This document shows, piece by piece, positions 7,400-59,827 of a stretch of DNA of 64,000 bases (position 1 is its first letter; each line of letters starts with the position of its first letter). The notes under the pieces were generated by a model that was not told the origin of the DNA, made no database searches, and saw only the letters and a list, made by a program, of their open reading frames with translations. Source of the DNA: Vallitaleaceae bacterium 9-2 (GTDB taxonomy: Bacteria; Bacillota; Clostridia; Lachnospirales; Vallitaleaceae); contig CP121691.1 in assembly GCA_038396585.1 (NCBI GenBank), positions 992,001 through 1,056,000 on the forward strand. Reading direction: 5' to 3'. A program made the position numbers and the translations under genes.

Positions 7400-7412
7400 T
7401 ATATCAAGTGAA

Positions 7413-7507
7413 CAAATCCGAGTTAGCGTATCTAAGGCTGTGCTATGAGCGTTAACCGATGGGTATTAGAGAAATCGAATTGCCTCCCGCTATTTGGAAA
7501 GGGTTTG
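7413..7507 (+). promoter_or_regulatory. Moco-type riboswitch, copy 1
   Basis: The leader shares ordered blocks with the copy at 10577: TCCGAGT-AGCG, CTAAGG, CGATG, AGAAATC, GCCTCCCG and TTTGGAAAGG. These blocks match my memory of the Moco RNA motif, which senses molybdenum or tungsten cofactor. The closing helix is CAAATCC (7413-7419) with GGGTTTG (7501-7507). In the other copy the closing helix has a different sequence but still pairs. It precedes an AOR-family pterin enzyme, the expected target. I see no strong terminator after it, so control may be at translation or through a weak wobble-rich stem (7513-7534). Confidence 0.8.
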
Positions 7508-7573
7508 ATTGACGGTGTTGTTTTTTCAATGTCGTTTATTCGGCTGTCTTTTAAATTAAAGGAGGTATTTTTT

Positions 7574-9313
7574 GTGAACAAATTTATTCGGGTTAACATG
7601 GAGACACTAGAAGTAACCGTTGGAACAGTGCCCGAGAAGTACGCGGGACTGGGAGGAAGAGCGTTAACATCCAACTTTGTTAATGATGAGGTAAAGCCAA
7701 CATGCCATCCACTAGGAAAAAATAACAAGGTGATTATTGCTCCGGGATTATTAAGTGGAACCACAGCGCCAAACTCAGGAAGGCTCTCAGTAGGAGCAAA
7801 AAGTCCGTTGACAGGAACCATCAAAGAATCCAACACAGGAGGATCTTCATCACAAATGCTGGCTAAGATGGGAATTAAGGCTTTAGTCATTGAAGGAATG
7901 CCTAAAGAAGATAAGTTCTATATTATTAAGGTCACCATGGATGGAGTTACTATTGAGGAAGCCCCTAGCCAAATACTTGGTGGATGTGGCAATTATGAAG
8001 CGATTAAAGTGCTCAATGAAAAGTATGGCAACCATGTGGGTATGGCATTAACGGGACCGGCAGGAGAGTATCGTCTGCCATCAGCTAACATATCATTTAA
8101 AGATCCTGATGGAAATATTCGTAGTGCCGGACGTGGTGGTTTAGGTGCAGTTCTTGGCTCGAAAAAGGTGAAGGGAATCGTCATTGATTCTACAGGAGCT
8201 TCTTCAGTACCTATCGCTGATCCGGAAAAATTCAAAGCAGCATCCAAAGTCTTTGCAAAAGCATTGCTAGACCATCCGGTTGCGGGACAAGGGCTAGCCG
8301 CATATGGAACCGATGTACTTGTTAATATTTTAAATGAGGCAGGAGGTCTTCCGGCGAACAACTTTACAGCAGGTCGTATTGATCATAATGACAATATATC
8401 CGGCGAGACAATGAACGCAACGATTACAGAACGAGGTGGAGAAGGAAAAGTCTCCCATGGATGTCATAAGGGATGTATTATTCGATGCTCCCAATGGTAT
8501 CCGGATAAGCAAGGAAAATACATCACCAGTGGTTTTGAATACGAGACCATTTGGGGATTAGGTGCTGATGGCGGAATTAAAGATTTAGATATTATTGCCT
8601 ATATCGACCGGGCAATGGATGATGTCGGAGTCGACAGTATTGAGACAGCTGTAGCGGTAGCAACTGCAATGGACGGAGGCTTGATTCCTTGGGGGGATGG
8701 AGAGGCAGTTCTTAAAATTGTTCAAGAGATGGCAAAGCCAACACCGCTTGCACGAATTATTGCCAGTGGAACGTCTGTGGTAGGTAAGGTATGTGGATTA
8801 TTTAGAGTTCCTGTGGTTAAAGATCAAGGAATACCCGCATATGACCCACGTTCAGTCAAAGGGATTGGATTAACATATGCCACAACAACAATGGGAGCCG
8901 ATCATACGGCAGGTTATTGTATTTCAGGGAATATCCTAAAAGTTGGTGCAGACATTGATCCGCTAAAAAAAGAAGGTCAAGTTGAATATGCAAGAGCCAT
9001 GCAGATTGGAACAGCGGCAATTGACAGTTCGGGAATGTGTCTATTTGTATACTTTGGAATCGCAGACAATCCGGGTGGATATCAAGCATTGATTGATATG
9101 ATTAATGCCCAATATGGATTGGAATTGACTGCCGATGATTTGGATACATTAGGAAAAGCTGTACTTAAAGTAGAAAAAGATTTTAATACACGTGCCGGGT
9201 TTACTAATCATCATGATCGACTTCCTGAATTTATGGAGTATGAGCCTTTGCCACCACATAATGAAGTGTGGAACTTTACACCGGAAGAGATTGACGAAGT
9301 CTGGAACTTTTGA
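7574..9313 (+). CDS. AOR-family tungsten/molybdenum-pterin oxidoreductase
   Basis: A 579-residue member of the aldehyde:ferredoxin oxidoreductase family, which oxidises aldehydes to acids with a bis-pterin W or Mo centre and passes electrons to ferredoxin. GGRALTS near the N-terminus and the following Gly-rich region contact the pterin. The [4Fe-4S] ligands are in SHGCHKGCIIRC plus the later DSSGMC. The start is GTG at 7574 with AAAGGAGG nine bases upstream. Longer in-frame starts fall inside the riboswitch and are not credible. It is followed at four bases by MoaD-like and MoeB-like genes. The physiological aldehyde cannot be read from the sequence. Confidence 0.9.
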   Translation: MNKFIRVNMETLEVTVGTVPEKYAGLGGRALTSNFVNDEVKPTCHPLGKNNKVIIAPGLLSGTTAPNSGRLSVGAKSPLTGTIKESNTGGSSSQMLAKMGIKALVIEGMPKEDKFYIIKVTMDGVTIEEAPSQILGGCGNYEAIKVLNEKYGNHVGMALTGPAGEYRLPSANISFKDPDGNIRSAGRGGLGAVLGSKKVKGIVIDSTGASSVPIADPEKFKAASKVFAKALLDHPVAGQGLAAYGTDVLVNILNEAGGLPANNFTAGRIDHNDNISGETMNATITERGGEGKVSHGCHKGCIIRCSQWYPDKQGKYITSGFEYETIWGLGADGGIKDLDIIAYIDRAMDDVGVDSIETAVAVATAMDGGLIPWGDGEAVLKIVQEMAKPTPLARIIASGTSVVGKVCGLFRVPVVKDQGIPAYDPRSVKGIGLTYATTTMGADHTAGYCISGNILKVGADIDPLKKEGQVEYARAMQIGTAAIDSSGMCLFVYFGIADNPGGYQALIDMINAQYGLELTADDLDTLGKAVLKVEKDFNTRAGFTNHHDRLPEFMEYEPLPPHNEVWNFTPEEIDEVWNF

Positions 9314-9317
9314 CCCA

Positions 9318-9653
9318 ATGACCGATGAAAAAAAACAATTGGAAATTCGTGGGTTTTTGCAATTAGATGCTTTTCTTAAAAAGAAATATGGAACAATGCC
9401 TGTGTTTTATGAGATTGACGGACCGATAACAGGAATAGAATTGGCAAAAGAACTGGGAATTAAACGAGAAGACATCGAAGTGATTTTTGTTAATGGGTTT
9501 GTCCAGGAGGTGAACTATACCTTAAATCCCGGAGACCGTATGGCTTTTTTACCTCCGGGGTGTCCTGGACCCTATAGAATTGCACTGGGATTTTATGGTA
9601 AGAATCAAGACAATGCAGCAAATTTTAAGATTCAGCGAAAGGATTCCAAATAA
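9318..9653 (+). CDS. MoaD/ThiS-like protein lacking the Gly-Gly tail
   Basis: A 111-residue protein whose N-terminal half is not ubiquitin-like by eye, while residues from about 35 onward resemble MoaD/ThiS folds found in AOR operons (VIFVNGFVQEVNYTLNPGDRMAFLPP). It extends past the usual end with GCPGPYRIALGFYGK and finishes KDSK rather than Gly-Gly, so it cannot be adenylated in the normal MoaD way unless processed. The start ATG is four bases after the AOR stop, and no good ribosome site is visible, so translation is probably coupled. A structural or chaperone role for the AOR cofactor is possible. Confidence 0.65.
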   Translation: MTDEKKQLEIRGFLQLDAFLKKKYGTMPVFYEIDGPITGIELAKELGIKREDIEVIFVNGFVQEVNYTLNPGDRMAFLPPGCPGPYRIALGFYGKNQDNAANFKIQRKDSK

Positions 9654-9877
9654 TGAAGATTACAGTCAAGCTATTTGCAACCTTAAGAAACTATGGTGAG
9701 AACATATGTGAGATGGAGGTTAGTGACGATGCAACGCCGTTATCGGTGATGCATATGATGCGCATCCCTCCTCAGGAAGTATCGATTGTCATGATTAACG
9801 GCAAGCGAGTGAACGAACAGACGCCGTTAAAGCAGGCAGATACCGTTGCGTTATTCCCACCAGTAGGAGGTGGATGA
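9653..9877 (+). CDS. moaD: MoaD-like sulfur carrier
   Basis: A 74-residue ubiquitin-fold protein ending VALFPPVGGG. The C-terminal Gly-Gly is the site that MoeB adenylates and that is then thiocarboxylated to supply the dithiolene sulfurs of molybdopterin. The ATG overlaps the preceding stop by one base, and its own stop overlaps the MoeB-like start, so the three genes are co-translated. No MoaE, MoaA or MoaC is seen in the window. Confidence 0.85.
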   Translation: MKITVKLFATLRNYGENICEMEVSDDATPLSVMHMMRIPPQEVSIVMINGKRVNEQTPLKQADTVALFPPVGGG

Positions 9878-10560
9878 TGCGCTATGCTCGTAATGGTATC
9901 TTCACAGAGCAAGAGATGGTACGACTAAAGCATGCCCGTGTATGCATTGTCGGATGTGGAGGTCTGGGAGGATATATACTTGAGATGATGACGCGAGTGG
10001 GCGTTGGATATCTTAGGGTTATTGATGGGGATTGCTTTAGTCCAAGTAATCTTAACCGTCAAATACTCTCACGAGAAGATAATATGGGGCAGGCAAAAGT
10101 ACATGCTGCAAAAGAACGGGTTCAAGAGATTAACAAAGAAGTTGAGATTGACTGTATCGCAGACTATCTGGATGAGCAAAATGCAGAGACAATGCTAGAA
10201 GGGCATGATCTTGTTATGGATGCACTGGATTCTATAGCAAGTAGATATGTATTACAAAAAACTTGTGAAGCATTAGAGATTCCTCTGGTCCATGGAGCTA
10301 TTGCCGGATGGTATGGTCAAGTTGCAGTTATCTTTCCAGGCGATAGACTATTAGATTTAGTCTACAAAAGTCCGTTTGATGGAGTACAGCCCCCCGGAAT
10401 AGAAACAAAACTTGGCAACCCTTCCTTTAGTCCGGCGACGATAGCATCTATTCAAGTATCAGAAGGATTAAAGGTTTTGCTTCAGAGGGGGACGGTTTTA
10501 AGAAAAAAATTATTGTATATTGATCTTTTAGATAATGAATTTCATATTATAAACTTATAG
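9874..10560 (+). CDS. MoeB/ThiF/HesA-family adenylyltransferase
   Basis: A 228-residue E1-like enzyme. The nucleotide-binding GCGGLGGYI, the DGDCFSPSNLNRQ signature and the LVMDALDSIASR segment are intact. Such proteins adenylate the C-terminal glycine of MoaD or ThiS. The adjacent MoaD-like gene with a Gly-Gly end is the obvious partner. It lacks the rhodanese domain found in some homologues. ThiF for thiamine is the alternative, but the Moco-type riboswitches on both sides and the AOR gene favour pterin cofactor work. Confidence 0.85.
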   Translation: MMRYARNGIFTEQEMVRLKHARVCIVGCGGLGGYILEMMTRVGVGYLRVIDGDCFSPSNLNRQILSREDNMGQAKVHAAKERVQEINKEVEIDCIADYLDEQNAETMLEGHDLVMDALDSIASRYVLQKTCEALEIPLVHGAIAGWYGQVAVIFPGDRLLDLVYKSPFDGVQPPGIETKLGNPSFSPATIASIQVSEGLKVLLQRGTVLRKKLLYIDLLDNEFHIINL

Positions 10561-10576
10561 TAATTAAATAGTATAA

Positions 10577-10663
10577 TTCCGAGTCAGCGACCCTAAGGGA
10601 AACTATGGATCGATGACCTGGGTTAGGGGAGAAATCCGCTAGCCTCCCGTGTTTGGAAAGGAA
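10577..10663 (+). promoter_or_regulatory. Moco-type riboswitch, copy 2
   Basis: It has the same ordered blocks as copy 1 at 7413 (CCGAGT-AGCG, CTAAGG, CGATGACCTG, GGAGAAATC, GCCTCCCG, TTTGGAAA). The closing helix is TTCC (10577-10580) with GGAA (10660-10663), different bases from copy 1 but still complementary. It sits 16 bases after the MoeB-like stop and before the ECF/lipoprotein operon. Confidence 0.8.
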
Positions 10664-10673
10664 GACTTGTTAA

Positions 10674-10707
10674 GGGTACTTCTATGTCTGAAGTACTCTT
10701 TTTCTTT
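10674..10707 (+). terminator. Riboswitch expression-platform terminator
   Basis: Nine paired bases (GGGTACTTC with GAAGTACTC, one G-T pair) around TATGTCT, followed by TTTTTCTTT. It lies 10 bases after the aptamer, so cofactor binding probably controls read-through into the import operon. Confidence 0.8.
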
Positions 10708-10727
10708 ATATTATAGGAAGGAGGAGT

Positions 10728-11219
10728 GTGTTGAAACGAGGGATATTCATAATAATCTGTATACTTTTGGGTCTTTGGACAACAGGGTGCCAACAACAAG
10801 AAGACTTTGGCAACAATACGGTGAATACATATATATTAGACCTTGATGAAAACTTTGAGCGTGTAGAAGAAAAAGAAGATGAAAATATTTTAAGAGTATA
10901 TGACTTAGGCAAGCAGACATATAGTGTTGTAACTAAGGTTATGGGATTTGAAGGCATGATTTTCATAGATGTGAGACTGGAAGACCAAGCAATCCATGAA
11001 GTGAAGATTATTCATGAAAATGAATCGGAAGGTTATGGACATTATATTGTTGAATCTTGGTTTTTGGAACGGTTTCAAATATCTGGTTATGAAGAACTTA
11101 AGTTGACAAAGTATTTTAAAGAGCAGGAAGATGAAGTTGTTGCAGTTACAGGTGCGACAATTTCAAGTCAAGCGGTACTTGATGCAGTTAATAATACATT
11201 GGATATTATAGGAGGGTAG
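10728..11219 (+). CDS. FMN-binding-domain lipoprotein
   Basis: A 163-residue lipoprotein with lipobox LWTTGC. The C-terminal half is an FMN-binding domain as in RnfG/NqrC, ending VVAVTGATISSQAV. The TGATxSS motif is where ApbE-type enzymes attach FMN covalently to Thr. GGAAGGAGG precedes overlapping GTG (10728) and TTG (10731) starts; the TTG has the better spacing. As the first gene of the Moco-riboswitch operon on the outer face of the membrane, it may pass electrons to or from a bound cofactor. No ApbE gene is in the window. Confidence 0.82.
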   Translation: MLKRGIFIIICILLGLWTTGCQQQEDFGNNTVNTYILDLDENFERVEEKEDENILRVYDLGKQTYSVVTKVMGFEGMIFIDVRLEDQAIHEVKIIHENESEGYGHYIVESWFLERFQISGYEELKLTKYFKEQEDEVVAVTGATISSQAVLDAVNNTLDIIGG

Positions 11220-11222
11220 TCT

Positions 11223-12806
11223 ATGCAAATGGGTAAGAAGGTACTAATCATATTTTTTACGATGGTGTTGATAATGACAGGATGTAAGTCAGGCTCAGCA
11301 GAACAAGAAGCGATAACAGATGTGGATCAAGGGTCGGCTAGTGGAGGACAAGAGCAGGAACAGGCGCTAACATATGAGGGAGAACTGTCTTTTGAAGGAG
11401 AAGCTGAGTTTTCCATAGCATATGATGAGATTTATGGAATGGACGCAGTGGAAAGAACCGTCAAACATATTTCCTCGAGTGGAGAAGAGACCACCAATAC
11501 GGTAAAAGGGGTCTTGCTTTCGGAGATTCTATCAGCGCATGGAATTGACCAGCAAATGTTGGGCTCCATACGATTTAGTGCAGGTGATGGGTATGCAATT
11601 GATGTTCCTCAAGATATTGTTCGCGAAAAAGAGATTGTATTAGCGTGGATGTTTGATGGAGAAATGCTTGATGAACGAAAAATGCCTCTTCGTGTGGCAA
11701 TTGATGATGTGCGCTCTATGTATTATGCTTCGAATTTATCCAAAGTAATCCTTGGAGAAGCAAAAGAAGTTGTCGAAGAACAAAATGAAGCAATAGAGAA
11801 AAAAATCGTGATGCTCGATACGGCCATCGCAGGCTTAGAAAAACTTCCATATGTATATTATGAGAGTCAAGACATGGCGATTAATGTCAAAGAGCTTTTT
11901 GGTGCATTTAGTTCAAACCCCTCGGATACAGTGTCTTTTGTTGCCATAGACGGATATGAAAAAACAGAAAGTTATGATGTGGTTAGTGAAGGGTTCATCA
12001 AATATACAGGTGAGGACGCACCACTTTTTACAGGACGAGATCTTCCCAAAGGAATGAATGTAAAATATATCTTATCTCTTAGTACAGAAGATGTAACCTA
12101 TCTATCTGTAATGGGGGCTATGGATAAGCTAAACGTCGAGATGATTGATGGGAATATGGGCGTTAATCTAAAAGAAGTCGTGGACTTGATTGGGTGGTCG
12201 GCACAGACATATATTTTGACAGCGGCAGACGGCTATGAAAAGCAAGTGAGTGCACAAGATCTTGAGATAGGCATCGCATACCTTGAGGAGGATGCAACGG
12301 TAACAGCCATATTTAATGTGGATAATCCGGGAAAATCAAAGGTCAAGGAGCTTATATCTATTCGAGCAGAAAATAGTGAAAAAGCTGACACTTTAACAGA
12401 AGATGAGAATCAGATGGAAGGTGTCAATTGGGTCGTTACCATTGATGGATTAAGCGATGGTTCCTTTGAATTTGATCGAGAACGAGCTGAACGAAAATTA
12501 ACATTAATTGACCTCCATACAGAAAAAATGAAAAATGATGAAAAAATTCCTGAGGACTGGCAGGGATATCGAGTTTTAGACATCCTTGAATTTTTAAAGG
12601 TAGACGATTTTGAGAGCATTGTTGTTACTGCGCAAGATGGATATGAAGTAGAACTATCTAAAGATTTAGTGGATGGCGAGACGATTCTTGCCGTTGTAAA
12701 AGATGGAGAAGCGATGACTGAAGAAGATAATTTGGTTCAGTTGGTACAAAACACAGAGTTTGCAACAACTTGGGTGAAGGGTGTTGCAAGGATTACGGTC
12801 AAATAA
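11223..12806 (+). CDS. Surface lipoprotein with four sulfite-oxidase-like pterin-binding-type domains
   Basis: A 527-residue lipoprotein (lipobox LIMTGC) with an acidic, Gly/Ser/Gln-rich linker. It is built of about four repeats, each about 110-130 residues and each with a DGY core: SAGDGYAIDVP, VAIDGYEKTES, TAADGYEKQVS and TAQDGYEVELS. Around these are patterns such as GVLLSEILSAHGI and LRVAIDDVRSMYYASNLSKVILG, which recall the molybdopterin-binding domain of sulfite oxidase/YedY. The catalytic Cys of that family is not visible. It may bind pterin cofactor at the cell surface for the ECF importer encoded downstream. The domain match is by pattern only. Confidence 0.6.
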   Translation: MQMGKKVLIIFFTMVLIMTGCKSGSAEQEAITDVDQGSASGGQEQEQALTYEGELSFEGEAEFSIAYDEIYGMDAVERTVKHISSSGEETTNTVKGVLLSEILSAHGIDQQMLGSIRFSAGDGYAIDVPQDIVREKEIVLAWMFDGEMLDERKMPLRVAIDDVRSMYYASNLSKVILGEAKEVVEEQNEAIEKKIVMLDTAIAGLEKLPYVYYESQDMAINVKELFGAFSSNPSDTVSFVAIDGYEKTESYDVVSEGFIKYTGEDAPLFTGRDLPKGMNVKYILSLSTEDVTYLSVMGAMDKLNVEMIDGNMGVNLKEVVDLIGWSAQTYILTAADGYEKQVSAQDLEIGIAYLEEDATVTAIFNVDNPGKSKVKELISIRAENSEKADTLTEDENQMEGVNWVVTIDGLSDGSFEFDRERAERKLTLIDLHTEKMKNDEKIPEDWQGYRVLDILEFLKVDDFESIVVTAQDGYEVELSKDLVDGETILAVVKDGEAMTEEDNLVQLVQNTEFATTWVKGVARITVK

Positions 12807-13361
12807 ATGATAAATCTAAAACGTTTTTCAGTTTTTGAACTTGTAGTTATGGCCTTGCTTGCGTCCATTGGTCTTGCTGCAAAACCAGTTGTTGTACCCT
12901 TAGCACATATGATTACAGTACCTCTGGGAATTCCCGGAGGTGCAATTGCCGGGGGGCTATATATGTTTTGGATTGTACTGGCAGGTGGTTTGGTAAAAAA
13001 AAGAGGCGCAGCGACAATAACGGCTTTCACCCAAGCAATTATTGTTATGGTGACGGGACTTATGGGAAGTCATGGGCTATTAAGTATTATTACCTATACA
13101 TTGCCCGGTTTAATCATTGATGTGTACTTAATTATTTTTCGAAGACACTTAAGTACGTCAACAGATTTTTTTGTTGCAGGTATCCTTGCTAATATGGCGG
13201 GAGCCTATATGACGATATTAGTATTTTTTCGCTTACCTTTAATTCCTACGTTAACTAGCCTTTCAGCAGCTGTTTTTTCTGGAGGGATTGGCGGTTTGAT
13301 TGCCTATCGGCTATATCTAAGTATTATGAGTACGGGGGTGATTTCAAGTGATGATACGTAA
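12807..13361 (+). CDS. ECF transporter substrate-specific (S) component
   Basis: A 184-residue, very hydrophobic protein with about five or six membrane helices and the small-residue-rich first helix typical of S components (FELVVMALLASIGLAAK). The genes for two ECF ATPases and a T component follow in the same operon, so this is probably the dedicated substrate-binding membrane subunit. It resembles ThiW/HMP-type S components only loosely. The Moco-type riboswitch and MobB neighbours suggest a pterin-cofactor or precursor substrate. Its ATG follows the previous stop directly. Confidence 0.75.
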   Translation: MINLKRFSVFELVVMALLASIGLAAKPVVVPLAHMITVPLGIPGGAIAGGLYMFWIVLAGGLVKKRGAATITAFTQAIIVMVTGLMGSHGLLSIITYTLPGLIIDVYLIIFRRHLSTSTDFFVAGILANMAGAYMTILVFFRLPLIPTLTSLSAAVFSGGIGGLIAYRLYLSIMSTGVISSDDT

Positions 13362-14739
13362 GTTTTTAGGTCTTATGCTATTGGCCGGGCTACTAACGGG
13401 ATGTCAAAGGGAAGTTGCAACAGAGCCATTTGAGGTTAAAGGGGATATCGAAACATGGACAATTATTGAAGATACAACGAAGCCTCTAGATACCATGGAG
13501 TTGATTAACGCACTGACGCCTTTATATGGGACATTTGATCTGGTGATTAGTTCAAGAGATGGATTTTCCATCCGATTAAGTGGAGAGACCATTGATAATA
13601 CATCCCTTAAGTATTCACCTTCAACAGGCTGGATGTTTGTCTCTGAGCATCATCCGGTCAATAGCCGCGTGAAGTGGATTAGTGAAGTTATCGTGGTCAA
13701 GAAAAAACAGGAGGAGCCTAACTTTAGCGCAGGTCTTAATATTATCCGAGACGATCAAAACATCCATAAATCTTTAGGTGAGCTTTTATCAATGGAGTAT
13801 GGTATGCGCTTTCATATTGACGGAACAACAGAGCAAGAAGGCAATTCAATTGATGTTATGAAGAAAGTGCGTTTTTTCCCGTTAAAAACATGGATAGAAG
13901 AAGGCTATGACTGGCTTTTAGTTATGGATGGAAGTGGAGAACATCACTATATCCGAGAAGGGGACTACTCGATCGAAATGCAAAATAGGCAATTGAACTT
14001 ACGCGGTGTTCATGGACAGGAGATAGAGGATGTGGTTGGAGTCATCGTTGACCCACCTGCACAGACAGTGATGGATAATTATTATGATGCAATGAATTAT
14101 ATAGAAAAAGGGATTCCCGTGCTCACAATCTTTATTGATGGATTTGCTTTTGAACAATGGGAACAAGTAAAAGAAGAATATCCAAGCTTATACATATCCA
14201 AGCAGAAATTTTCAAAAGCGAGTACAGTATATACACCGGTAACAAATGCGGGATTTGCAGCGATGATATCTGGACAAGTTCCAAAGCAAACAGGAATTAT
14301 GGACCGTTCGGTTCGTCGTCCGGCATGTGATACGATATATAATCAGGTGGAAGAAGGTGTTCTTATAGATGGTCTTGTCAAAATTCTAGATGTTCCTTGT
14401 AAACTATATTTAGAAAATGATGAAGATGATGATGGGTACACAGATGAAGAAGTATATGTAAAAGCCCTGGATATTCCAAGTGAGAAATATATGCTCGTAC
14501 ATTTTAATGGTGTTGATGAAGCGGGACATGATTATGGACCGTATGATGAAAAAACAATAAATAAAATTATTGAAGTGGATGGTTATGTCGAGGAACTTGC
14601 CAATCGCTGGCCTGGAAAAGTGATTATCCTTGCAGACCATGGCATGCATAAGACAAGTGAAGGCGGCGATCATGGGGAGTTTCGAGTGGAGGATATGTTT
14701 ATTCCTTATCTGATAATTGATGGAGGACAATATGAGTAA
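13348..14739 (+). CDS. Surface phosphodiesterase/nucleotide-pyrophosphatase-like lipoprotein
   Basis: A 463-residue lipoprotein (lipobox LLTGC). The N-terminal part includes a DGF core (ISSRDGFSIRLS, then VKWISEVIVV) related to the repeats of the upstream lipoprotein. From about residue 255 an alkaline-phosphatase-superfamily domain of the NPP type carries every expected metal site: FIDGFAFEQW, a TPVTNAGFAAMISG nucleophile region, GVDEAGHDYGP, ILADHGM and GGDHGEF. NPP enzymes cleave nucleotide phosphodiester and pyrophosphate bonds. Placed outside the cell next to an importer, it could strip GMP or CMP, or phosphate, from dinucleotide forms of the cofactor before uptake. The start is GTG 13348 or ATG 13351, overlapping the S-component gene. 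Confidence 0.72.
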   Translation: MMIRKFLGLMLLAGLLTGCQREVATEPFEVKGDIETWTIIEDTTKPLDTMELINALTPLYGTFDLVISSRDGFSIRLSGETIDNTSLKYSPSTGWMFVSEHHPVNSRVKWISEVIVVKKKQEEPNFSAGLNIIRDDQNIHKSLGELLSMEYGMRFHIDGTTEQEGNSIDVMKKVRFFPLKTWIEEGYDWLLVMDGSGEHHYIREGDYSIEMQNRQLNLRGVHGQEIEDVVGVIVDPPAQTVMDNYYDAMNYIEKGIPVLTIFIDGFAFEQWEQVKEEYPSLYISKQKFSKASTVYTPVTNAGFAAMISGQVPKQTGIMDRSVRRPACDTIYNQVEEGVLIDGLVKILDVPCKLYLENDEDDDGYTDEEVYVKALDIPSEKYMLVHFNGVDEAGHDYGPYDEKTINKIIEVDGYVEELANRWPGKVIILADHGMHKTSEGGDHGEFRVEDMFIPYLIIDGGQYE

Positions 14740-15253
14740 ACAGATGAAAGGTATTGTGATAGTTTTAGTTATCGTAGGGCTTGTATTAGGGGTAAGCATC
14801 TATATGGGCAAGGACGATTTGGCACTTAGGACACAATTAAATAATGATGCAGTATTTGAGATTTTTGACCAAGGCAATGCGGTAGCTACGTATACAATGG
14901 AAGAGATAGAAGCATTAGGCGCATCAGAGTTTAAGGCGCATCTAAAATCTAGTGGTCAGGCTGCAGTTGAATATACCTATCAAGGGGTTCTGATGAAAAC
15001 GATTTTAGAGGATGCAGGAGTGGATTTTGAAGGAAAAGATTCAGCCATCGTTACAGCGGTAGATGGATATGCTGTATCGGTTGGCATGGATAAGTTAATG
15101 GATGATGATAATGTATATCTAGCATATATGCGTGAAGGGGAACTGCTTGGAACGTATGAAGATGGCGGAAGGGGACCTTATATGATGATTATACGTAAAG
15201 ACCAGTTTAGCCAATATTGGTGTAAGTATGCCTACCGAGTGGAGTTACAATAA
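14732..15253 (+). CDS. Membrane-anchored single pterin-binding-type domain protein
   Basis: A 173-residue protein with an N-terminal membrane anchor (residues about 5-23) and one outer domain carrying GVLMKTILEDAGVDF and TAVDGYAVSV. This is the same DGY domain that is repeated in the lipoprotein at 11223. It ends GRGPYMMIIRKDQFSQYWCKYAYRVEL, close to the end pattern of sulfite-oxidase-fold domains. GGAGGA lies four bases before the ATG at 14732, which overlaps the previous stop. A single-domain partner of the ECF transporter is the simplest reading; its ligand is unproven. Confidence 0.62.
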   Translation: MSKQMKGIVIVLVIVGLVLGVSIYMGKDDLALRTQLNNDAVFEIFDQGNAVATYTMEEIEALGASEFKAHLKSSGQAAVEYTYQGVLMKTILEDAGVDFEGKDSAIVTAVDGYAVSVGMDKLMDDDNVYLAYMREGELLGTYEDGGRGPYMMIIRKDQFSQYWCKYAYRVELQ

Positions 15254-15873
15254 TGATTGTACTTAATAGAGTTGCTTTTTCATATAAAAAAGTACAACCG
15301 CTTTTGCGAGAAATCAATCTTGTGATTAATCGAGGTGAGCATATTGGTATAATGGGCTCAAGTGGTTCGGGTAAGTCAACACTTTTAAAAATCATTAATG
15401 GAACGATTGACATTCAAAGGGTTCAAGGAGAATATCATCGACCGGATGAGCTGACCTTTGGAAGTGTGTATCAAAATTTAGATAACCAGATTATTTTTCC
15501 CAACGTGTTGGATGAGATTGTATTTGGCATGGAGAACTTGTGTTATTCGAAGAAGCAAATGGATGAAAAACTCATTGAAGTTACACAGATACTTGATATT
15601 GAGCATTTGCTCGCAGAAGAGACGAGGCATTTATCCGGGGGCGAAAAGCAATTGGTTATAATGGCATCGATTCTTTGTCTAGATGTAGATGTACTGATTT
15701 TAGATGAATGCATGAGCCAAGTAGATGAACGAGGCAAGGCATTGATTTTAAAGGCGATTGATGCACTAAAAATAAAGGCAACGACGGTTATTATGGTGGA
15801 TCATGAGAAGGCGCATCTAGAAAATATGGACCGGTTGTACCAAGTGAAGGATGGCCAGTTAATGATTATATGA
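15253..15873 (+). CDS. ECF transporter ATPase, first subunit
   Basis: A 206-residue ABC ATPase with Walker A GSSGSGKST, Q-loop YQNLDNQIIF, signature LSGGEKQL and Walker B VLILDECMSQVDE. Walker B has Cys where most have Pro. It is shorter than the typical 280-residue EcfA because the C-terminal extension is missing. The ATG overlaps the stop of the preceding gene by one base. It pairs with the second ATPase immediately downstream to drive the S/T complex. Confidence 0.88.
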   Translation: MIVLNRVAFSYKKVQPLLREINLVINRGEHIGIMGSSGSGKSTLLKIINGTIDIQRVQGEYHRPDELTFGSVYQNLDNQIIFPNVLDEIVFGMENLCYSKKQMDEKLIEVTQILDIEHLLAEETRHLSGGEKQLVIMASILCLDVDVLILDECMSQVDERGKALILKAIDALKIKATTVIMVDHEKAHLENMDRLYQVKDGQLMII

Positions 15874-15884
15874 GAGGTGTATAT

Positions 15885-16550
15885 ATGGAAGCAATCATCC
15901 GATTAGATGGAGTATCCTATAGAGTAAAAGAAAAAGATATCTTATCGAATATCAACCTATCCTTATATAAAGGAGAGATTGTTGCTTTGACAGGTCCTAA
16001 TGGTGCCGGTAAAACTACGCTCTCAAAAGTTATGATGGGGGTATTACAGCCAACACAAGGAAAAGCATATATTGAAGAGCAAGATTTAGAGACGATGAAG
16101 CTATTTGAAGTAGGGCGTAAGATAGGCTATATGTTTCAAAATCCTACACACCAGATTTTTATGGCGACGGTGAAAGAGGAACTGAGTTTTGCTATGCGAT
16201 ATAACAAGTGCTCCAAAGAGAAGATAAGAGAAGAAACAAATACTATGATGAACGTATTTAACTTGAATATCATACAAGAGCATTTGACCTATCATTTGAG
16301 TCAAGGGGAAAAGCAGCGTGTAGCGCTTGCAACAATATTGATGAACAGACCACAATACCTAATACTTGATGAACCGTTTAAAGGATTAGACGAAGAACAT
16401 AAACATCAAATGATAAACTACTTAAAGACAATCCATAGACAGGGGGTTGGGATTTTGATTATTACCCATAATCAATACATCATTAAGACATTGGCAGATC
16501 GAGTGCTTTTTATGGGAGGTGGTTACATTGAGCATGACAAAAGTGTTTGA
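15885..16550 (+). CDS. ECF transporter ATPase, second subunit
   Basis: A 221-residue ABC ATPase: Walker A TGPNGAGKTT, Q-loop MFQNPTHQIF, signature LSQGEKQR, Walker B YLILDEPFKGLDE. The QNP Q-loop and the short C-terminus match cobalt/vitamin-type ECF ATPases. I take the ATG at 15885 (GAGAGGTG upstream) rather than an in-frame ATG five codons earlier that overlaps the previous stop. Confidence 0.88.
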   Translation: MEAIIRLDGVSYRVKEKDILSNINLSLYKGEIVALTGPNGAGKTTLSKVMMGVLQPTQGKAYIEEQDLETMKLFEVGRKIGYMFQNPTHQIFMATVKEELSFAMRYNKCSKEKIREETNTMMNVFNLNIIQEHLTYHLSQGEKQRVALATILMNRPQYLILDEPFKGLDEEHKHQMINYLKTIHRQGVGILIITHNQYIIKTLADRVLFMGGGYIEHDKSV

Positions 16551-17262
16551 TCCTCGAACAAAGATTATTTTCGTCTTTTTCTTTACAGCGGTTGCGATTT
16601 TCTTTGGAAATATGATGGTGTTAAATATTACCTTAGTGATTGGCGTTTGCTTTGCATTATTTTTTCGCGTTCGCCTTGTTCCTCTGTTCAAACGTATGCA
16701 GAAGTTCCTTCGCTTTTTTTTGGTATTGATTATTATTCAAAGTATTTTTGTTGCCGAAGGAGAGGTCATCTTTCGGCTCTTTGGCGTGAAACTATTGACG
16801 GATGTGGGGATTATCCGTGGTGTTCAGTATCTTTATCGGATGTTGGTAGTTATCCTATCTGGAGCCATTATCTCAACATCAGGTCTTAAAGATAACTTAC
16901 AAGCCTTAGTCCAGCTAGGACTTCCCTATGATGTAGGGTTTATGTGTGCTATTGGCATTCGATTTTTGCCGATTTTCATGGAAGATATTAAAAATACTCA
17001 GATGGCTCTAGGGTTACGAGGGATTGATTTTGAATCGTTAAAGCTTACGGACCGTATTCAAATGGTCACGACACTTTTTTTGCCAACGGTTGTAGGTGCA
17101 CTACAAAGAGCCAAAGAACTATCATTATCAGCAGAGGCTAGAGGCTATAAGATACAAAGCAAGCGAAGCTATTATCGATGGTTGAAGTTTTCGGCCATGG
17201 ATTATGGAATGATTGTGATGGTTATGGTTCTATTTATTGGTTTAGTGGTTTGGAAAGGATAA
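16528..17262 (+). CDS. ECF transporter transmembrane (T) component
   Basis: About 244 residues with four or five membrane helices. It opens with FDPRTKIIF, the usual start of EcfT/CbiQ proteins, and ends its cytoplasmic coupling region with LSAEARGYK, the Ala-Arg-Gly motif that contacts the ATPases. GGGAGGTGG precedes a TTG at 16528 by seven bases; ATG 16534 is the alternative. It overlaps the end of the second ATPase gene. Confidence 0.9.
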   Translation: MSMTKVFDPRTKIIFVFFFTAVAIFFGNMMVLNITLVIGVCFALFFRVRLVPLFKRMQKFLRFFLVLIIIQSIFVAEGEVIFRLFGVKLLTDVGIIRGVQYLYRMLVVILSGAIISTSGLKDNLQALVQLGLPYDVGFMCAIGIRFLPIFMEDIKNTQMALGLRGIDFESLKLTDRIQMVTTLFLPTVVGALQRAKELSLSAEARGYKIQSKRSYYRWLKFSAMDYGMIVMVMVLFIGLVVWKG

Positions 17263-17266
17263 AAAG

Positions 17267-18028
17267 ATGAAGGTGTTTTCAGTATGTGGATTTACATCAA
17301 CAGGAAAAACAACAACAGTTGAAGGAATTATCAAAGAACTAAAGCGACGTAACTATTCAGTAGGCTCGGTCAAAGATATTCATTTTGAAGACTTTCGAAT
17401 AGATACTCAAGGAAGCAATACCCATCGACATCGTATGGCAGGTGCAGAACTAGTGACAGCTAGAGGGCTTCACGAGACGGATATTTTATTTCCAAGGCAG
17501 TTGAATATTTATGAGATACAAGCGTTTTATGATGTGGATTATTTGGTAATAGAAGGAATGTGTGATGCAAATATTGCGCATATACTTACAGGTAAGACAA
17601 AGCAGGACTTAGAGAATAAGTATAATGACCGCGTCTTTATGATTTCAGGGAAAATAGCTGATACGATTACAGAATATAAAGGACTTCCGGCAATAAGTAT
17701 TTTTGATGACCCTAAGAGAATGGTAGACTTGATTGAGGAAAAAACGTTTGAATTGTTGCCTGATTTTGATGAAAAATGTTGTGGAGCTTGTGGAATGGAT
17801 TGCAGACAGTTTTGTGCATCTGTAATACACGAAAATAGAGATATAAGAGAGTGTGTGCTTTATTCTAGTGATGTTCAGATGAAAATTAATGGTCAGTCCA
17901 TAGAGATGGTTCCCTTTGTACAGAAAATATTAAAAAATGCTGTGATAGGTGTTGCAAGTGAACTTGATGGATGGACGTCTAATGGCAAATTAGAGATTAC
18001 TATAGGTAGGGATTATGCAGATAGATAA
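17267..18028 (+). CDS. MobB-like GTPase with C-terminal cysteine cluster
   Basis: A 253-residue protein. It starts like MobB, the GTP-binding partner of MobA in molybdopterin-dinucleotide synthesis, with P-loop GFTSTGKTT, SVKDIHFEDF and QGSNTHRHRMAGA. Unlike the short E. coli MobB, it carries a C-terminal extension with Cys171, Cys172, Cys175, Cys179, Cys183 and Cys196 (CCGACGMDCRQFC), which looks like an iron-sulfur site. The ATG is four bases after the T-component stop, within the ECF operon. Its presence is the best protein-level link between this transporter and pterin cofactor chemistry. Confidence 0.82.
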   Translation: MKVFSVCGFTSTGKTTTVEGIIKELKRRNYSVGSVKDIHFEDFRIDTQGSNTHRHRMAGAELVTARGLHETDILFPRQLNIYEIQAFYDVDYLVIEGMCDANIAHILTGKTKQDLENKYNDRVFMISGKIADTITEYKGLPAISIFDDPKRMVDLIEEKTFELLPDFDEKCCGACGMDCRQFCASVIHENRDIRECVLYSSDVQMKINGQSIEMVPFVQKILKNAVIGVASELDGWTSNGKLEITIGRDYADR

Positions 18029-18599
18029 AAACTTTCATTCTAAAAGAAACTGTGTTAGGCTAATTCAAGATAATGAACATATATATGTAGAGAAGAAGTT
18101 TTTTAACCTCATGGATTATAGAACAGAGTGTGAATGGTATATGATGCTTAGAAAAAGGGGGTTTTATATTCCGAAGCTTCTAAACAGCAACACAGATACA
18201 TTGACACTTCAGATGGAATATATTCAAGGGATAACGTTATTAGAACATTTGGAGATTCTGGAAGCTATGAATGACCAAGAAGGTGCCATACTTTGGATGA
18301 GTCGTTTGTTTGAGAACTTTAAGAGGCTTAACCAACAAGTGGGATGCTATTATTCAGATGTGAACTTGCGTAATTTTTTAGTTCTTGGGGATCGATTATA
18401 TCTTTTGGACTTTGAAGCGATCCGTAGTGGTAAAGAATTGCCCATTGCAAAGACATTAGCATTTTATCTTTTATATAGACCGATGAAGACTTCATTTAAG
18501 CAAAAGGTAGTTAAAATGTGCCTTTGCAATAACATGCAAGGGCACATAGAACCCAAAGTGTGGGAATGGGTTGAACATATAGAACAAAGGCGTCTGTGA
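18015..18599 (+). CDS. Small kinase-like protein
   Basis: A 194-residue protein with a reduced protein-kinase/phosphotransferase fold. It has an ATP-lobe Lys (YVEKKFF), the hinge-like LQMEYIQG, a catalytic loop YYSDVNLRNFLV with Asp and Asn in the right spacing, and a metal Asp in LYLLDFEA, similar to RIO/Bud32/Kdo-kinase proteins. It overlaps the MobB-like gene by 14 bases and is the last gene of the operon. It might re-phosphorylate an imported, dephosphorylated substrate; this is inference from the paired surface phosphodiesterase. A protein kinase role is the alternative. Confidence 0.6.
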   Translation: MQIDKNFHSKRNCVRLIQDNEHIYVEKKFFNLMDYRTECEWYMMLRKRGFYIPKLLNSNTDTLTLQMEYIQGITLLEHLEILEAMNDQEGAILWMSRLFENFKRLNQQVGCYYSDVNLRNFLVLGDRLYLLDFEAIRSGKELPIAKTLAFYLLYRPMKTSFKQKVVKMCLCNNMQGHIEPKVWEWVEHIEQRRL

Positions 18600-57012: not shown

Positions 57013-57594
57013 ATGAAACAACAAAAAATGCACACAAAAGATTTAATTACGACAGGAGTTTTTACAGCAATATACTTTGTCTTGTTCTTTGCTATGGGGA
57101 TGCTTGGTTATATACCAATACTTTTTGTCTTGATACCGCTATTATTACCTATGGTTTCAGGGATTCCATTTATGCTTTTTTTAACAAAAGTCGACAAGTT
57201 TGGAATGGTTACGATTATGGGAACTATACTTGGAGGCTTAATGATGTTGACAGGGCATTCGTATACACCAATTGTTACAGGCGTTGTCTTTGGTGTGTTG
57301 GCAGACTTGATTTTTAAACTGGGAAATTATAAGAGCAAAAAACTTTCTGTAGTAGGTTATGGAGTATTTAGTATGTGGTTATTAGGCATGCTGTTACCTT
57401 TTTGGATTATGAAAGATGCATTTGAAAAAACGATGACAGATAGTATGGGCGCTGATTATACACAGGCAGTATTAGGTCTTTTTGAAAAGGCAGCATGGAC
57501 TTTTCCGTTGATGGCATTTTGTGGCGGAGTTATTGGTGCAATCTTTGGTTTTAAAATGCTCAAAAAACATTTTGAAAAAGCAGGAATTGCCTAA
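57013..57594 (+). CDS. ECF transporter S component, Trep_Strep type
   Basis: A 193-residue membrane protein with five or six helices. KDLITTGVFTAIYFVLFF at the start and PMVSGIPFMLFLTKV in the middle match the Trep_Strep family of S components. Some relatives are reported in heme or iron-related uptake, but the substrate here is open. The T component and double ATPase genes follow. AAAGGA precedes the ATG. Confidence 0.78.
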   Translation: MKQQKMHTKDLITTGVFTAIYFVLFFAMGMLGYIPILFVLIPLLLPMVSGIPFMLFLTKVDKFGMVTIMGTILGGLMMLTGHSYTPIVTGVVFGVLADLIFKLGNYKSKKLSVVGYGVFSMWLLGMLLPFWIMKDAFEKTMTDSMGADYTQAVLGLFEKAAWTFPLMAFCGGVIGAIFGFKMLKKHFEKAGIA

Positions 57595-57615
57595 GAGGAT
57601 TAAAGGAGGAACGTT

Positions 57616-58341
57616 GTGGAAAAAAGCTATATGCAAGTAACACTTGATCAGGAGCAACAAAAGCTTGACCCACGCACAAAGATTATGATTTTACTCATTA
57701 TTAACATGTCTGCATTTACAGTTAATGCATGGTATGTTATGGCGCTGGCTGCAGCAATACCCTTATCTTTATTATGGTTAACTAAGCAATATCGACAAAC
57801 AATGTTGCTGACAATGGTATATGCGAGCTCACTTGTTTTATATATTTTATTGCTGGATACTGCTCATGGAAGTGTTAGTATAGTGATTGCAATGTTAACA
57901 AGTGTTATTAATCGTATGGGGCCAGGGCTTTTAATGGGATATTATCTGTTACGGACAACTACAGTGAGTGAATTTATTGCGGCAATGGAGAGATTAAAAA
58001 TCCCAAAACAAGTGACCATTCCTTTGTCAGTAATGTTTAGGTTTTTTCCGACAATCAAGCAAGAGCATACATCAATCAATGATGCGATGAAAATGCGAGG
58101 GGTCAGCTTTGGAAGCTCAAAAGGTAATATATTAACATTAATGGAATATAGATTAATTCCTTTATTTATCTCTTGCGTAAAAATAGGGGAAGAACTTTCA
58201 TGTTCTGCATTAACAAGAGGTCTGGGTGCAGAGACGAAAAGAACCAATGTATGTCATATTGGTTTTGCCTGGAGGGACTATCTGTATACACTTTTTGCAC
58301 TGGTAACATTGGTATTGCTGATTTACTCAAAAGGAAGGTGA
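57616..58341 (+). CDS. ECF transporter T component
   Basis: A 241-residue membrane protein with four or five helices. It begins LDPRTKIMILLI and carries the coupling motif CSALTRGLGAE near the C-terminus. GTG 57616 has AAAGGAGG upstream. Confidence 0.88.
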   Translation: MEKSYMQVTLDQEQQKLDPRTKIMILLIINMSAFTVNAWYVMALAAAIPLSLLWLTKQYRQTMLLTMVYASSLVLYILLLDTAHGSVSIVIAMLTSVINRMGPGLLMGYYLLRTTTVSEFIAAMERLKIPKQVTIPLSVMFRFFPTIKQEHTSINDAMKMRGVSFGSSKGNILTLMEYRLIPLFISCVKIGEELSCSALTRGLGAETKRTNVCHIGFAWRDYLYTLFALVTLVLLIYSKGR

Positions 58342-58345
58342 GCAT

Positions 58346-59827
58346 GTGATTGAGTTAAAAAAAGTATCGTTTCAATATGATAACCACCAACAAAGCAATG
58401 GAATTATCGATATTGACTTAACCATTCAAAAAGGAGAAGTTGTATTGCTATGTGGCGAGTCAGGGTGCGGAAAAACGACATTGACCCGTTTAATTAATGG
58501 GTTGATTCCACACTACTATAATGGCACACTATTAGGTGAAGTGCGAATTGATGGTAAAGATATGTGTCAGATGGATTTGCATGAGATTTCCCAGCATGTG
58601 GGAAGTGTCTTTCAAAACCCACGTTCACAATTTTATTGTATGGATACTTGTTCAGAGATGGCTTTTGCGTGTGAAAATCAGGGGATGTCGGTAGAAGAAA
58701 TAAAGACACGCATACAACGCACAGCGTCAGAGTTAAATATGGAAAAGTTGATGCAACGTAATATTTTCCATCTCTCAGGAGGTGAAAAACAAAAAATAGC
58801 ATGTGGATGTGTACATACAGCGTCACCAAATATTATCGTGCTAGATGAGCCATCCTCTAATCTTGATACTGAAGGGACGCAAATCTTAAAAAATATTATT
58901 CGCCATTGGAAGGGGGAAGGTAAGACAATTATTATCGCTGAACACCGATTACATTACTTAAGCGACTTGGCAGATCGTATGATTTACATGCAATCAGGAA
59001 AGATAGAGAAAATCCTTTCGATGGAAGATGCGAAAAAAATAGAAGGACATGTGTTTAAAAAATTAGGATTGAGACCATTGAACCTTACAAAATTGTCCAT
59101 GAAAGAGAAAATAAATGAAGATGTGGAAACGAAGATACAGCTGAAAAACTACGTCTATAGCTACAAGAAAGAAAAAGTAAAGGCATTAAATATTGATGCT
59201 CTAGATATTCCGAAAGGTAAAATTGTTGGAATTGTAGGGCATAATGGGGCAGGTAAATCCACGTTTGCTCGTTGTCTTTGTGGATTATCTAAGAAGTTTA
59301 AAGGAAAGATACAGATAGAAAGTCAAAGTTACAATCAAAAACAATGTGTAGGCAAAACATATATGGTTATGCAGGATGTCAATCATCAGCTTTTTACTGA
59401 AACGGTTCTAGACGAAGTTATGTTAAGTATGAAAGAAGATAATACTCACCGTGCACAGCAAATACTTAAAAGCTTGAATCTATTGGACTTACAGCAGCTA
59501 CATCCCATGTCCCTTTCAGGCGGTCAAAAACAAAGAGTCGCCATAGCAGGGGCAATTGCTTCTGAAAAAGATATCATTATTTTTGATGAGCCTACAAGTG
59601 GCTTGGATTTAAAGCATATGATGCAGGTGTCTCAAAATATTAAGCAATTAAAAACCATGGGAAAAACAATGATTATCATTACCCATGATTTAGAATTTAT
59701 TATGGAAACGTGTGATTATATCGCATACTTAAAAAATGGAGAAATTAAAGATTTTTATAAGTTGACGAAAGCAAAGCTATCTAAATTAATCGCTCATTTT
59801 AGTGTAAAAGAAGCTATAGGTACATAA
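58346..59827 (+). CDS. ECF transporter double ATPase
   Basis: A 493-residue fusion of two ABC ATPases. Domain 1 has CGESGCGKTT, LSGGEKQK and IIVLDEPSSNLD; domain 2 has GHNGAGKST, LSGGQKQR and IIIFDEPTSGLD. A single fused subunit replaces the two ATPases used by the other ECF system in this window. GTG 58346 has AAGGAAGG upstream. It overlaps the convergent agrC-like gene by 14 bases. Confidence 0.9.
   Translation: MIELKKVSFQYDNHQQSNGIIDIDLTIQKGEVVLLCGESGCGKTTLTRLINGLIPHYYNGTLLGEVRIDGKDMCQMDLHEISQHVGSVFQNPRSQFYCMDTCSEMAFACENQGMSVEEIKTRIQRTASELNMEKLMQRNIFHLSGGEKQKIACGCVHTASPNIIVLDEPSSNLDTEGTQILKNIIRHWKGEGKTIIIAEHRLHYLSDLADRMIYMQSGKIEKILSMEDAKKIEGHVFKKLGLRPLNLTKLSMKEKINEDVETKIQLKNYVYSYKKEKVKALNIDALDIPKGKIVGIVGHNGAGKSTFARCLCGLSKKFKGKIQIESQSYNQKQCVGKTYMVMQDVNHQLFTETVLDEVMLSMKEDNTHRAQQILKSLNLLDLQQLHPMSLSGGQKQRVAIAGAIASEKDIIIFDEPTSGLDLKHMMQVSQNIKQLKTMGKTMIIITHDLEFIMETCDYIAYLKNGEIKDFYKLTKAKLSKLIAHFSVKEAIGT

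Follow-up and report, generated by a model that had tools for sequence, protein, structure and literature searches.

We analysed a stretch of 64,000 nucleotides from Vallitaleaceae bacterium 9-2 (assembly GCA_038396585.1, contig CP121691.1, positions 992,001 to 1,056,000; hereafter the window), which belongs to a genome consisting of a single contig of 3,813,169 bases and labelled G000 below. The window carries a riboswitch-headed operon that encodes a complete energy-coupling factor (ECF) transporter together with several surface proteins, and we read it as a candidate uptake and salvage system for a molybdenum or tungsten pterin cofactor (Moco or Tuco). Ten open reading frames (ORFs) run in the same direction from 10728 to 18599 and either overlap or are separated by a few bases. 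This tight packing agrees with the original prediction, while the start that it gave, 10577, has to be moved to 10565, where the riboswitch begins. The operon comprises the following features.

10565..10679, + strand: P3-lacking Moco/Tuco riboswitch at the head of the importer operon (RF01055, 65.3 bits, E 1.8e-13)
10672..10706, + strand: intrinsic terminator-like hairpin (-13.4 kcal/mol)
10728..11219, + strand: FMN-binding lipoprotein, RnfG-like, with lipobox TTGC and flavinylation-type motif GAT (PF04205, E 3.2e-13)
11223..12806, + strand: SUOX1, lipoprotein containing one or more SUOX domains (PF00174 over two stretches, E 4.9e-11)
12807..13361, + strand: substrate-binding S component, YkoE/PF09819 superfamily (PF09819, 43.6 bits, cut-off 25.2)
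13348..14739, + strand: PDE, lipoprotein phosphodiesterase/nucleotide pyrophosphatase of the alkaline-phosphatase superfamily (PF01663, E 2.3e-15)
14732..15253, + strand: SUOX2, membrane-anchored SUOX-domain protein (PF00174, E 2.7e-8)
15253..15873, + strand: ECF ATPase A1 (PF00005; best NCBIfam model TIGR04520, below cut-off)
15870..16550, + strand: ECF ATPase A2 (PF00005; best NCBIfam model TIGR04521, below cut-off)
16519..17262, + strand: ECF transmembrane T component, CbiQ family (PF02361, E 4e-22)
17267..18028, + strand: MobB-like GTPase whose C terminus has a cluster of Cys residues (PF03205, E 7.9e-17, 61.8 bits, cut-off 26.6)
18015..18599, + strand: small kinase-like protein, candidate cofactor kinase (PF03109, 23.7 bits, cut-off 22.9)

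As predicted, the ECF set is encoded together and complete, with S (PF09819), T (PF02361) and two ATPases (PF00005 twice), and the FMN-binding lipoprotein, the MobB-like GTPase and the kinase-like protein were likewise recovered. The last of these has a weak ABC1/Bud32-like match, and its residues K27, E38, D115, N120 and D132 are invariant in 28 of 28 aligned sequences. The prediction of three surface proteins sharing a DGY domain held for two of them, the proteins starting at 11223 and 14732, in which the common domain is SUOX (PF00174); the third turned out to be the PF01663 phosphodiesterase, which had been overlooked. In the MobB-like protein, the Cys-rich tail matches the PF04060 Fe-S domain below its cut-off, and neither NCBIfam model is reached (TIGR00176, 71.7 bits with a cut-off of 76.2; PRK14494 MobB/FeS, 124.6 with a cut-off of 418).

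Two leaders in the window, one heading the importer operon and the other preceding an aldehyde ferredoxin oxidoreductase (AOR) gene, had been proposed to be Moco-type RNAs, and both pass the covariance-model search, with 65.3 and 48.8 bits against an RF01055 gathering score of 36. They are the sole gathering-level Rfam matches in the window, and the genome holds no RF01055 match beyond this pair. The P3 hairpin of the model is absent from both. P3-lacking RNAs have been proposed to sense the tungsten cofactor and P3-containing ones the molybdenum cofactor, the class as a whole being regarded as a sensor of the metal-loaded cofactor that distinguishes Mo from W (Regulski 2008, PMC2408646); the form that the window's organism would import is probably the tungsten cofactor. 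The predicted terminator was found as the hairpin at 10672-10706, and in the predicted leader fold the 3' strand of the aptamer pairs with the U-run of this hairpin. Such a fold fits ligand-induced termination, by which plentiful cofactor would end transcription early in a feedback loop.

Recurrence of the operon and its compact form

A search of 391 genomes from the class recovered S in 21, G000 among them. An alignment of 18 S sequences retrieved 262 relatives in named genomes, and the best 80 of these 262 loci were kept. Together with a set of 20 loci they gave 100 neighbourhoods for comparison, six of the 20 lying on the same contigs as members of the 80-locus set and two of the 80 sharing sequence. 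Gene occupancy was scored in the 36 of the 80 loci that are flanked on either side by 7 kb or more, using labels assigned by phmmer at E 1e-4. SUOX2 is present in 35 of them, MobB in 31, T in 32, SUOX1 in 29, PDE in 26 and the kinase-like protein in 22, while A1 and A2 score 31 and 32, labels that may confuse them with other ABC ATPases.

The riboswitch was followed with an RNA model (R1) made from 19 RF01055 matches, and hits were counted up to E 1e-5 on the same strand and upstream of S, weaker matches at L080 and L081 being excluded. A Moco RNA precedes S in 54 of the 80 loci, and in 35 of the 41 where at least 9 kb of upstream DNA is present; its median distance to S is 2.25 kb, with 36 of the 54 at 3 kb or less. 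Within the 20-locus set, Rfam reports RF01055 in 16 loci, upstream of S and on the same strand in 12. The remaining four (L029, L034, L035 and L043) have it only downstream of S, at about 4.3-7.8 kb, where it presumably heads other genes. No RF01055 was found by Rfam in L031, L033, L040 and L044, the upstream DNA being only 4.4 kb in L031 and 0.4 kb in L033. The operon set recurs across Bacillota, and the presence of both gene set and riboswitch in dozens of loci speaks against a chance arrangement. The two window RNAs have no P3, nor do the 17 RNAs from the first two batches given to Rfam (in L030 it was read from the alignment; on the L043 RNA the landmark script misread or failed), and P3 is also lacking in the RNAs of L183-L186.

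Besides this large form, a compact one was observed. The G113 genome encodes an S protein 35% identical to that of the window, and a 137-base RF01055 match (87.6 bits, P3 present) starts 128 bases upstream of the S match. The order at this locus is riboswitch, S, a small SUOX-like protein (33 bits by our own HMM, not reported by Pfam) and a MobA-like protein, which carries PF12804 and scores under the cut-offs of the MobA models. Beside this locus, on the other strand, lies a gene for formate dehydrogenase (841.9 bits with TIGR01591, whose cut-off is 666). The order of S, SUOX-like and MobA genes is found again in L167, L168 and L172, with S near MobA in L169 and L170 and S with a SUOX-like gene in L173; L167 adjoins a molybdopterin oxidoreductase. 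Rfam reports RF01055 at L167-L170 and does not report it at L171-L173, and all five compact-form RNAs (5/5) contain P3. The pairing of a P3-lacking RNA with AOR in the window, and of a P3-containing RNA with formate dehydrogenase in G113, is a match of subtype and enzyme that is suggestive only, because four operons of the main type (L178 and L180-L182) carry P3. For the same reason we dropped a clean split in which P3-lacking RNAs would go with AOR and P3-containing ones with formate dehydrogenase.

Several other genes were observed around the importer. A protein cluster occurs near it in 38 neighbourhoods, and its representative (L117:662-1825, the only member scanned) joins SUOX to S-layer (SLH) domains. 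Some operons are accompanied by a 4Fe-4S/FMN_bind membrane-type protein (L056:8271-9446, cluster in 12 loci) or by ApbE (L037:6082-7155, cluster in 6 loci), a hint that electrons may reach the surface proteins by such a route. Three further families lie near some operons, in 6 loci each: a DUF364/DUF4213 'heavy-metal chelation' protein (L036:6586-7347), a PF01497 binding protein (L066:8100-9194) and a 249-aa family with no Pfam match at 1e-4 (L031:3616-4362).

The S component and the surface proteins

In a PF09819 control search, members of the family were found in 44 of 199 genomes of the phylum, with Bacillus subtilis among the matches; 30 loci were kept, and eight of them carry thiamine pyrophosphate (TPP) riboswitches. 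We take YkoE to be a PF09819 protein. Since the YkoE structure holds thiamine, with contacts at Trp49, Glu77 and Gln95 (PMC5037267), S could in principle belong to a transporter of thiamine or hydroxymethylpyrimidine (HMP) that has come to stand behind a Moco riboswitch. In a tree of 79 rows (30 with neither riboswitch label; L144 and L146 dropped), a 100/100 branch parts 41 S sequences with Moco RNAs from the eight TPP-riboswitch members, so that S is not grouped with the thiamine-riboswitch members of its superfamily. We compared 24 sequences of the main type, 7 of the compact type and 8 of the TPP clade, with columns matched to Trp49, Glu77 and Gln95 by spacing only. Where the TPP clade has W, E and Q, the main Moco clade has Y52, V80 and P100. 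The thiamine contacts are apparently replaced in S of the main Moco clade, which has invariant residues of its own; of these, K26 and Q76 are common to the compact form. None of the S neighbourhoods submitted to Rfam gave a TPP riboswitch match, and no Moco RNA was found by model R1 in 29 PF09819 loci, TPP clade included. Tree, riboswitch and contact columns led us to reject thiamine transport, which we regard as highly improbable even with the shared superfamily in its favour. A search of PDB sequences with the S alignment profile gave no match up to E 1.

The S proteins of a third PF09819 clade (L147-L155, from other families of the phylum) are long, and most are encoded next to an ECF ATPase; neither a Moco nor a TPP riboswitch was found within the 3.3 kb examined at these loci. 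SUOX-like proteins lie near several of them (e.g. L149, L150 and L152-L155) and near L146. In the window itself, visual inspection of the ORFs points to a second ECF-type set at 57013-59827 (S-like, T and a fused double ATPase), with no gathering-level Rfam riboswitch near it.

Lipoboxes are present in the FMN-binding protein, SUOX1 and PDE. The lipobox Cys is the only one in SUOX1, and SUOX2 has Cys164 alone, near the C terminus; the SUOX2 alignment has a single frequent Cys column, also near the C terminus (33 of 50), and none in the region expected for the metal ligand. Because of this Cys content, the sulfite-oxidase metal ligand is missing from both proteins, as it is from PruR. The predicted SUOX2 model (pLDDT 91.8, N-terminal helix 3-38) has its best Foldseek matches among sulfite oxidases and PruR proteins, including sulfite dehydrogenase 2ca3 (E 9.3e-7) and pterin-binding PruR 7kou (E 1.0e-6). 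SUOX1 and SUOX2 therefore look like exported SUOX-fold proteins that lack the Mo-ligating Cys, their putative export being suggested by the lipobox or the N-terminal helix.

The predicted PDE model (pLDDT 92.5) has as its top Foldseek match the Xac nucleotide pyrophosphatase/phosphodiesterase (NPP) 7n1s (E 9.7e-8). Residues D264, H385, D390, D430, H431 and H442 are kept in all 38 aligned sequences and H394 in 37 of them, while position 299 is Thr in 35 and Ser in the other 3; we take these D, T and H positions to be the catalytic and metal residues of NPP enzymes. By eye, the N-terminal region of PDE seemed to resemble SUOX; Pfam finds no SUOX domain there, and the 50 Foldseek matches listed are phosphodiesterases or PorX.

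Cofactor synthesis genes and client enzymes in carrier genomes

If the operon brings in a cofactor, related operons might occur in genomes that do not make it, as the original prediction had proposed to check. In 40 S-holding genomes, 38 with an S of the main family and two (G030 and G113) with a distant relative, we looked at E 0.001 for MoaC, for the C-terminal domain of MoaA and for the N-terminal domain of MoeA. MoaC was matched in 33, MoaA in 32 and MoeA in 31. None of the three has a match in the complete genome G000, so that the window's organism would seem to bear no sign of cofactor synthesis of its own, and all three are also missing at this threshold from six further carriers (G056, G175, G238, G113, G396 and G408), making 7 of 40. 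Completeness is 98% for G056, 92% for G175, 88% for G238 and 100% for G113; G396 is an Anaerosalibacter (locus L063), and G408 holds locus L122. A single marker is missing in G240 (MoaA), G030 (MoeA) and G397 (MoeA). Nine further carriers were searched for MoaC only; it was matched in two, and six of the other seven are titled metagenome-assembled genomes (MAGs). Locus L046 is not independent of the window because its S is 98% identical.

All seven carriers without the pathway keep genes of cofactor-using families. AOR is present in G000, G056, G175, G238 and G408, and PF00384 proteins, a family that can also take in non-Moco proteins, in G056, G113, G396 and G408. Across the class, S is strongly tied to AOR, which occurs in 18 of 21 genomes with S and in 34 of 370 without it (Fisher p 9e-15, uncorrected for relatedness); in the named-genome set, 26 of 28 carriers have AOR, G396 and G418 being those that do not. 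Among the 34 genomes with AOR and no S, MoaC is present in 31 and missing in G069 (a weak AOR fragment), G244 and G381.

In-frame TGA codons, one each, were seen in 12 of 15 PF00384 matches with frames of 890-931 aa (e.g. G396:C8:8558-9829), suggesting selenocysteine in these formate-dehydrogenase-like genes; the G396 gene lies in a genome with no match to MoaA, MoaC or MoeA.

In the window, the AOR gene and its neighbours lie directly upstream of the importer operon.

7404..7520, + strand: P3-lacking Moco/Tuco riboswitch before the AOR gene (RF01055, 48.8 bits)
7571..9313, + strand: AOR family protein (PF02730, E 7e-59; PF01314, E 5e-70)
9318..9653, + strand: ThiS/MoaD-like small protein (PF02597, 21.8 bits, just under the cut-off of 22.5)
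9653..9877, + strand: ThiS/MoaD-like small protein (PF02597, 39.2 bits, clear)
9874..10560, + strand: ThiF/MoeB-like adenylyltransferase (PF00899, E 6.7e-55; MoeB models match below cut-offs)

This AOR is the single PF01314 match of the genome and the likely client enzyme. The MoaD/ThiS-like pair and the MoeB/ThiF-like protein (9318-10560) follow it, in the absence of MoaA, MoaC, MoaE and MoeA matches, and they perhaps serve AOR maturation.

These same small proteins could act on a precursor, and the ECF complex might accordingly import precursor Z (cyclic pyranopterin monophosphate, cPMP), metal-free molybdopterin (MPT) or another pterin such as monapterin, the metal being added inside. SUOX-fold PruR, which SUOX2 matches in Foldseek, binds small reduced pterins (PMC13259868). 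However, the MoeA match is missing in all seven genomes without the pathway, and with it the usual metal-insertion enzyme, and the ligand attributed to this class of riboswitch is the metal-loaded cofactor (PMC2408646). We consider this alternative unlikely. The original prediction left both cofactor and precursor open: scavenging is supported, with transport itself inferred, and the missing MoeA favours the finished, metal-loaded cofactor over precursor Z.

The opposite direction was also weighed, in which the ECF complex would move Moco/Tuco or FAD outwards so as to load extracytoplasmic redox proteins with SUOX or FMN_bind domains. In Listeria, the ECF-type system EetB/FmnA exports flavin for flavinylation, and exporters of this kind adjoin genes of flavinylated proteins in Firmicutes (PMC9973259), a setting echoed here by the ApbE-like proteins in 6 loci and the 4Fe-4S/FMN_bind membrane proteins in 12. 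Yet genomes with no MoaA, MoaC or MoeA match have no evident cofactor to export, and, of the putative recipients, SUOX1 contains no Cys except in its lipobox and SUOX2 none in the expected metal-ligand region. The FMN lipoprotein is present in only 15 of the 36 loci when compared to 35 for SUOX2, and the compact form ends in MobA and adjoins formate dehydrogenase in G113. Export is in our view quite improbable.

Proposed uptake and salvage, and comparison with known systems

Starting from the observed operon, RNA class, protein families, folds, recurrence and missing pathway matches, we infer the substrate and the inward direction of the ECF complex. With a probability of roughly 0.78, the operon serves to take up and salvage the finished Mo/W-pterin cofactor. 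The SUOX-fold surface proteins, with no metal-binding Cys of their own, would catch the cofactor. The PDE lipoprotein might cut the nucleotide, and perhaps the phosphate, off dinucleotides of the molybdopterin guanine or cytosine type (MGD/MCD), a trimming role to which we give about an even chance. The FMN lipoprotein may keep the cofactor reduced or help its release, and the YkoE-type S with T, A1 and A2 would pump it in. Inside, the kinase-like protein could restore a phosphate, a tentative assignment that is rather less likely to be right than wrong, and MobB might hand the cofactor over; confidence in the roles proposed for MobB and the FMN protein is low. AOR, the sole PF01314 protein of G000, would then use the imported cofactor. 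On a broader scale, it is fairly probable that some free-living anaerobes have wholly lost Moco/Tuco synthesis and run AOR or formate dehydrogenase on cofactor scavenged from other cells through a dedicated ECF importer that exists in at least two forms, the large SUOX-PDE-ECF one and the compact S-SUOX-MobA one.

Several points weigh against this reading. The choice of substrate is drawn from genomics, and PruR itself probably cannot hold Moco according to a review (PMC13259868). The gene content of the operon is not constant, the FMN lipoprotein being found in only 15 and the kinase-like protein in only 22 of the 36 loci. Six of the 41 loci with at least 9 kb upstream have no Moco RNA (L064, L080, L081, L089, L105 and L108), and in 10 of the 54 with one it lies more than 6 kb upstream of S, where a shared operon is only presumed. 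The P3 hairpins of main-type operons L178, L180, L181 and L182, seen in the Rfam alignment, make the subtype split unclean, and for that reason the probability given to auxotrophic scavenging was lowered slightly. With MoaC in 33 of 40 carriers, the importer is often not needed for auxotrophy, and incomplete assemblies may explain some of the pathway losses (G396, G408 and MAGs with no stated completeness). MoaE (PF02391), found in 11 of 40 carriers, is uninformative, and it was dropped as a pathway marker because it is missing from many carriers positive for MoaA and MoaC. Among the AOR-containing genomes of the class sample, MoaC is missing from 4 of 18 that have S and from 3 of 34 that do not, a difference without significance (p 0.22); with named genomes included, the figures are 11 of 44 against 3 of 34 (p 0.08). 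The auxotrophy argument rests in consequence on individual genomes, above all G000. Finally, G244 (100% complete) has AOR with neither S (E 1e-5) nor MoaC, so that another cofactor route may exist.

Moco is labile. According to the prevailing view, a cell that requires Moco has to synthesise it; C. elegans seems to be an exception (PMC9793310). Uptake of the finished cofactor, if true, would overturn this view, and the metal cofactor would become a good traded in microbial communities, a community resource like vitamin B12. A dedicated bacterial importer would explain genomes that have Mo/W enzymes and no moa genes, put right metabolic predictions in which such enzymes count as dead, and yield candidate Moco-binding surface proteins as well as tools for cofactor delivery. 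The carriers without moa genes make the question of import testable by growth alone.

Among the open-licence PMC literature matches listed, none describes a bacterial importer for Moco or Tuco. Some type 11 secretion system (T11SS) proteins have been suggested to serve cobalamin or molybdopterin uptake (PMC12282271), and the dietary Moco of C. elegans (PMC9793310) is likewise external, but in an animal and with no bacterial importer. In the Moco/Tuco riboswitch regulon (PMC2408646), the RNA class is the same and its P3-lacking form is linked to tungsten genes, with P3-lacking RNAs placed before 'sulphite oxidase' genes in Syntrophomonas wolfei (Regulski 2008); here the regulon includes a whole importer, and the words ECF, importer, cobalt and lipoprotein are absent from the main text of that paper. 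PruR (PDB 7kou, 7kom and 7kos) shares the extracytoplasmic SUOX fold with no Mo-ligating Cys, but has its role in c-di-GMP signalling and is considered too small to accommodate Moco, whereas the SUOX domain is here tied to an importer. PDE resembles Xac NPP 7n1s and ENPP1/3 in its catalytic-domain fold and conserved catalytic-type residues, and differs from them in being a lipoprotein with an extra N-terminal region and a place in a cofactor operon. Listeria EetB/FmnA (PMC9973259) also has ECF-type parts beside FMN_bind proteins, although we propose the opposite direction here and the FMN protein is optional; 'molybd' and 'sulfite oxidase' do not occur in the main text of the flavinylation surveys PMC8238504 and PMC11334425.

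The closest parallels are importers. YkoE-type ECF vitamin importers (PF09819) have the same S, T and two ATPases, the same S superfamily and control by a riboswitch, which here is of the Moco/Tuco and not the TPP class, while S falls in a separate clade with the thiamine-contact columns apparently replaced, and surface proteins are added. The queuosine/preQ1 salvage system QueK-QrtT-QueL (PMC11477304) likewise combines a riboswitch, an ECF S component and enzymes that trim and rebuild the salvaged compound, with another substrate and other protein families, and the trimming proposed here would be extracellular. Altogether, the parts are of known kinds, and it is their combination, substrate and ecological role that look new.

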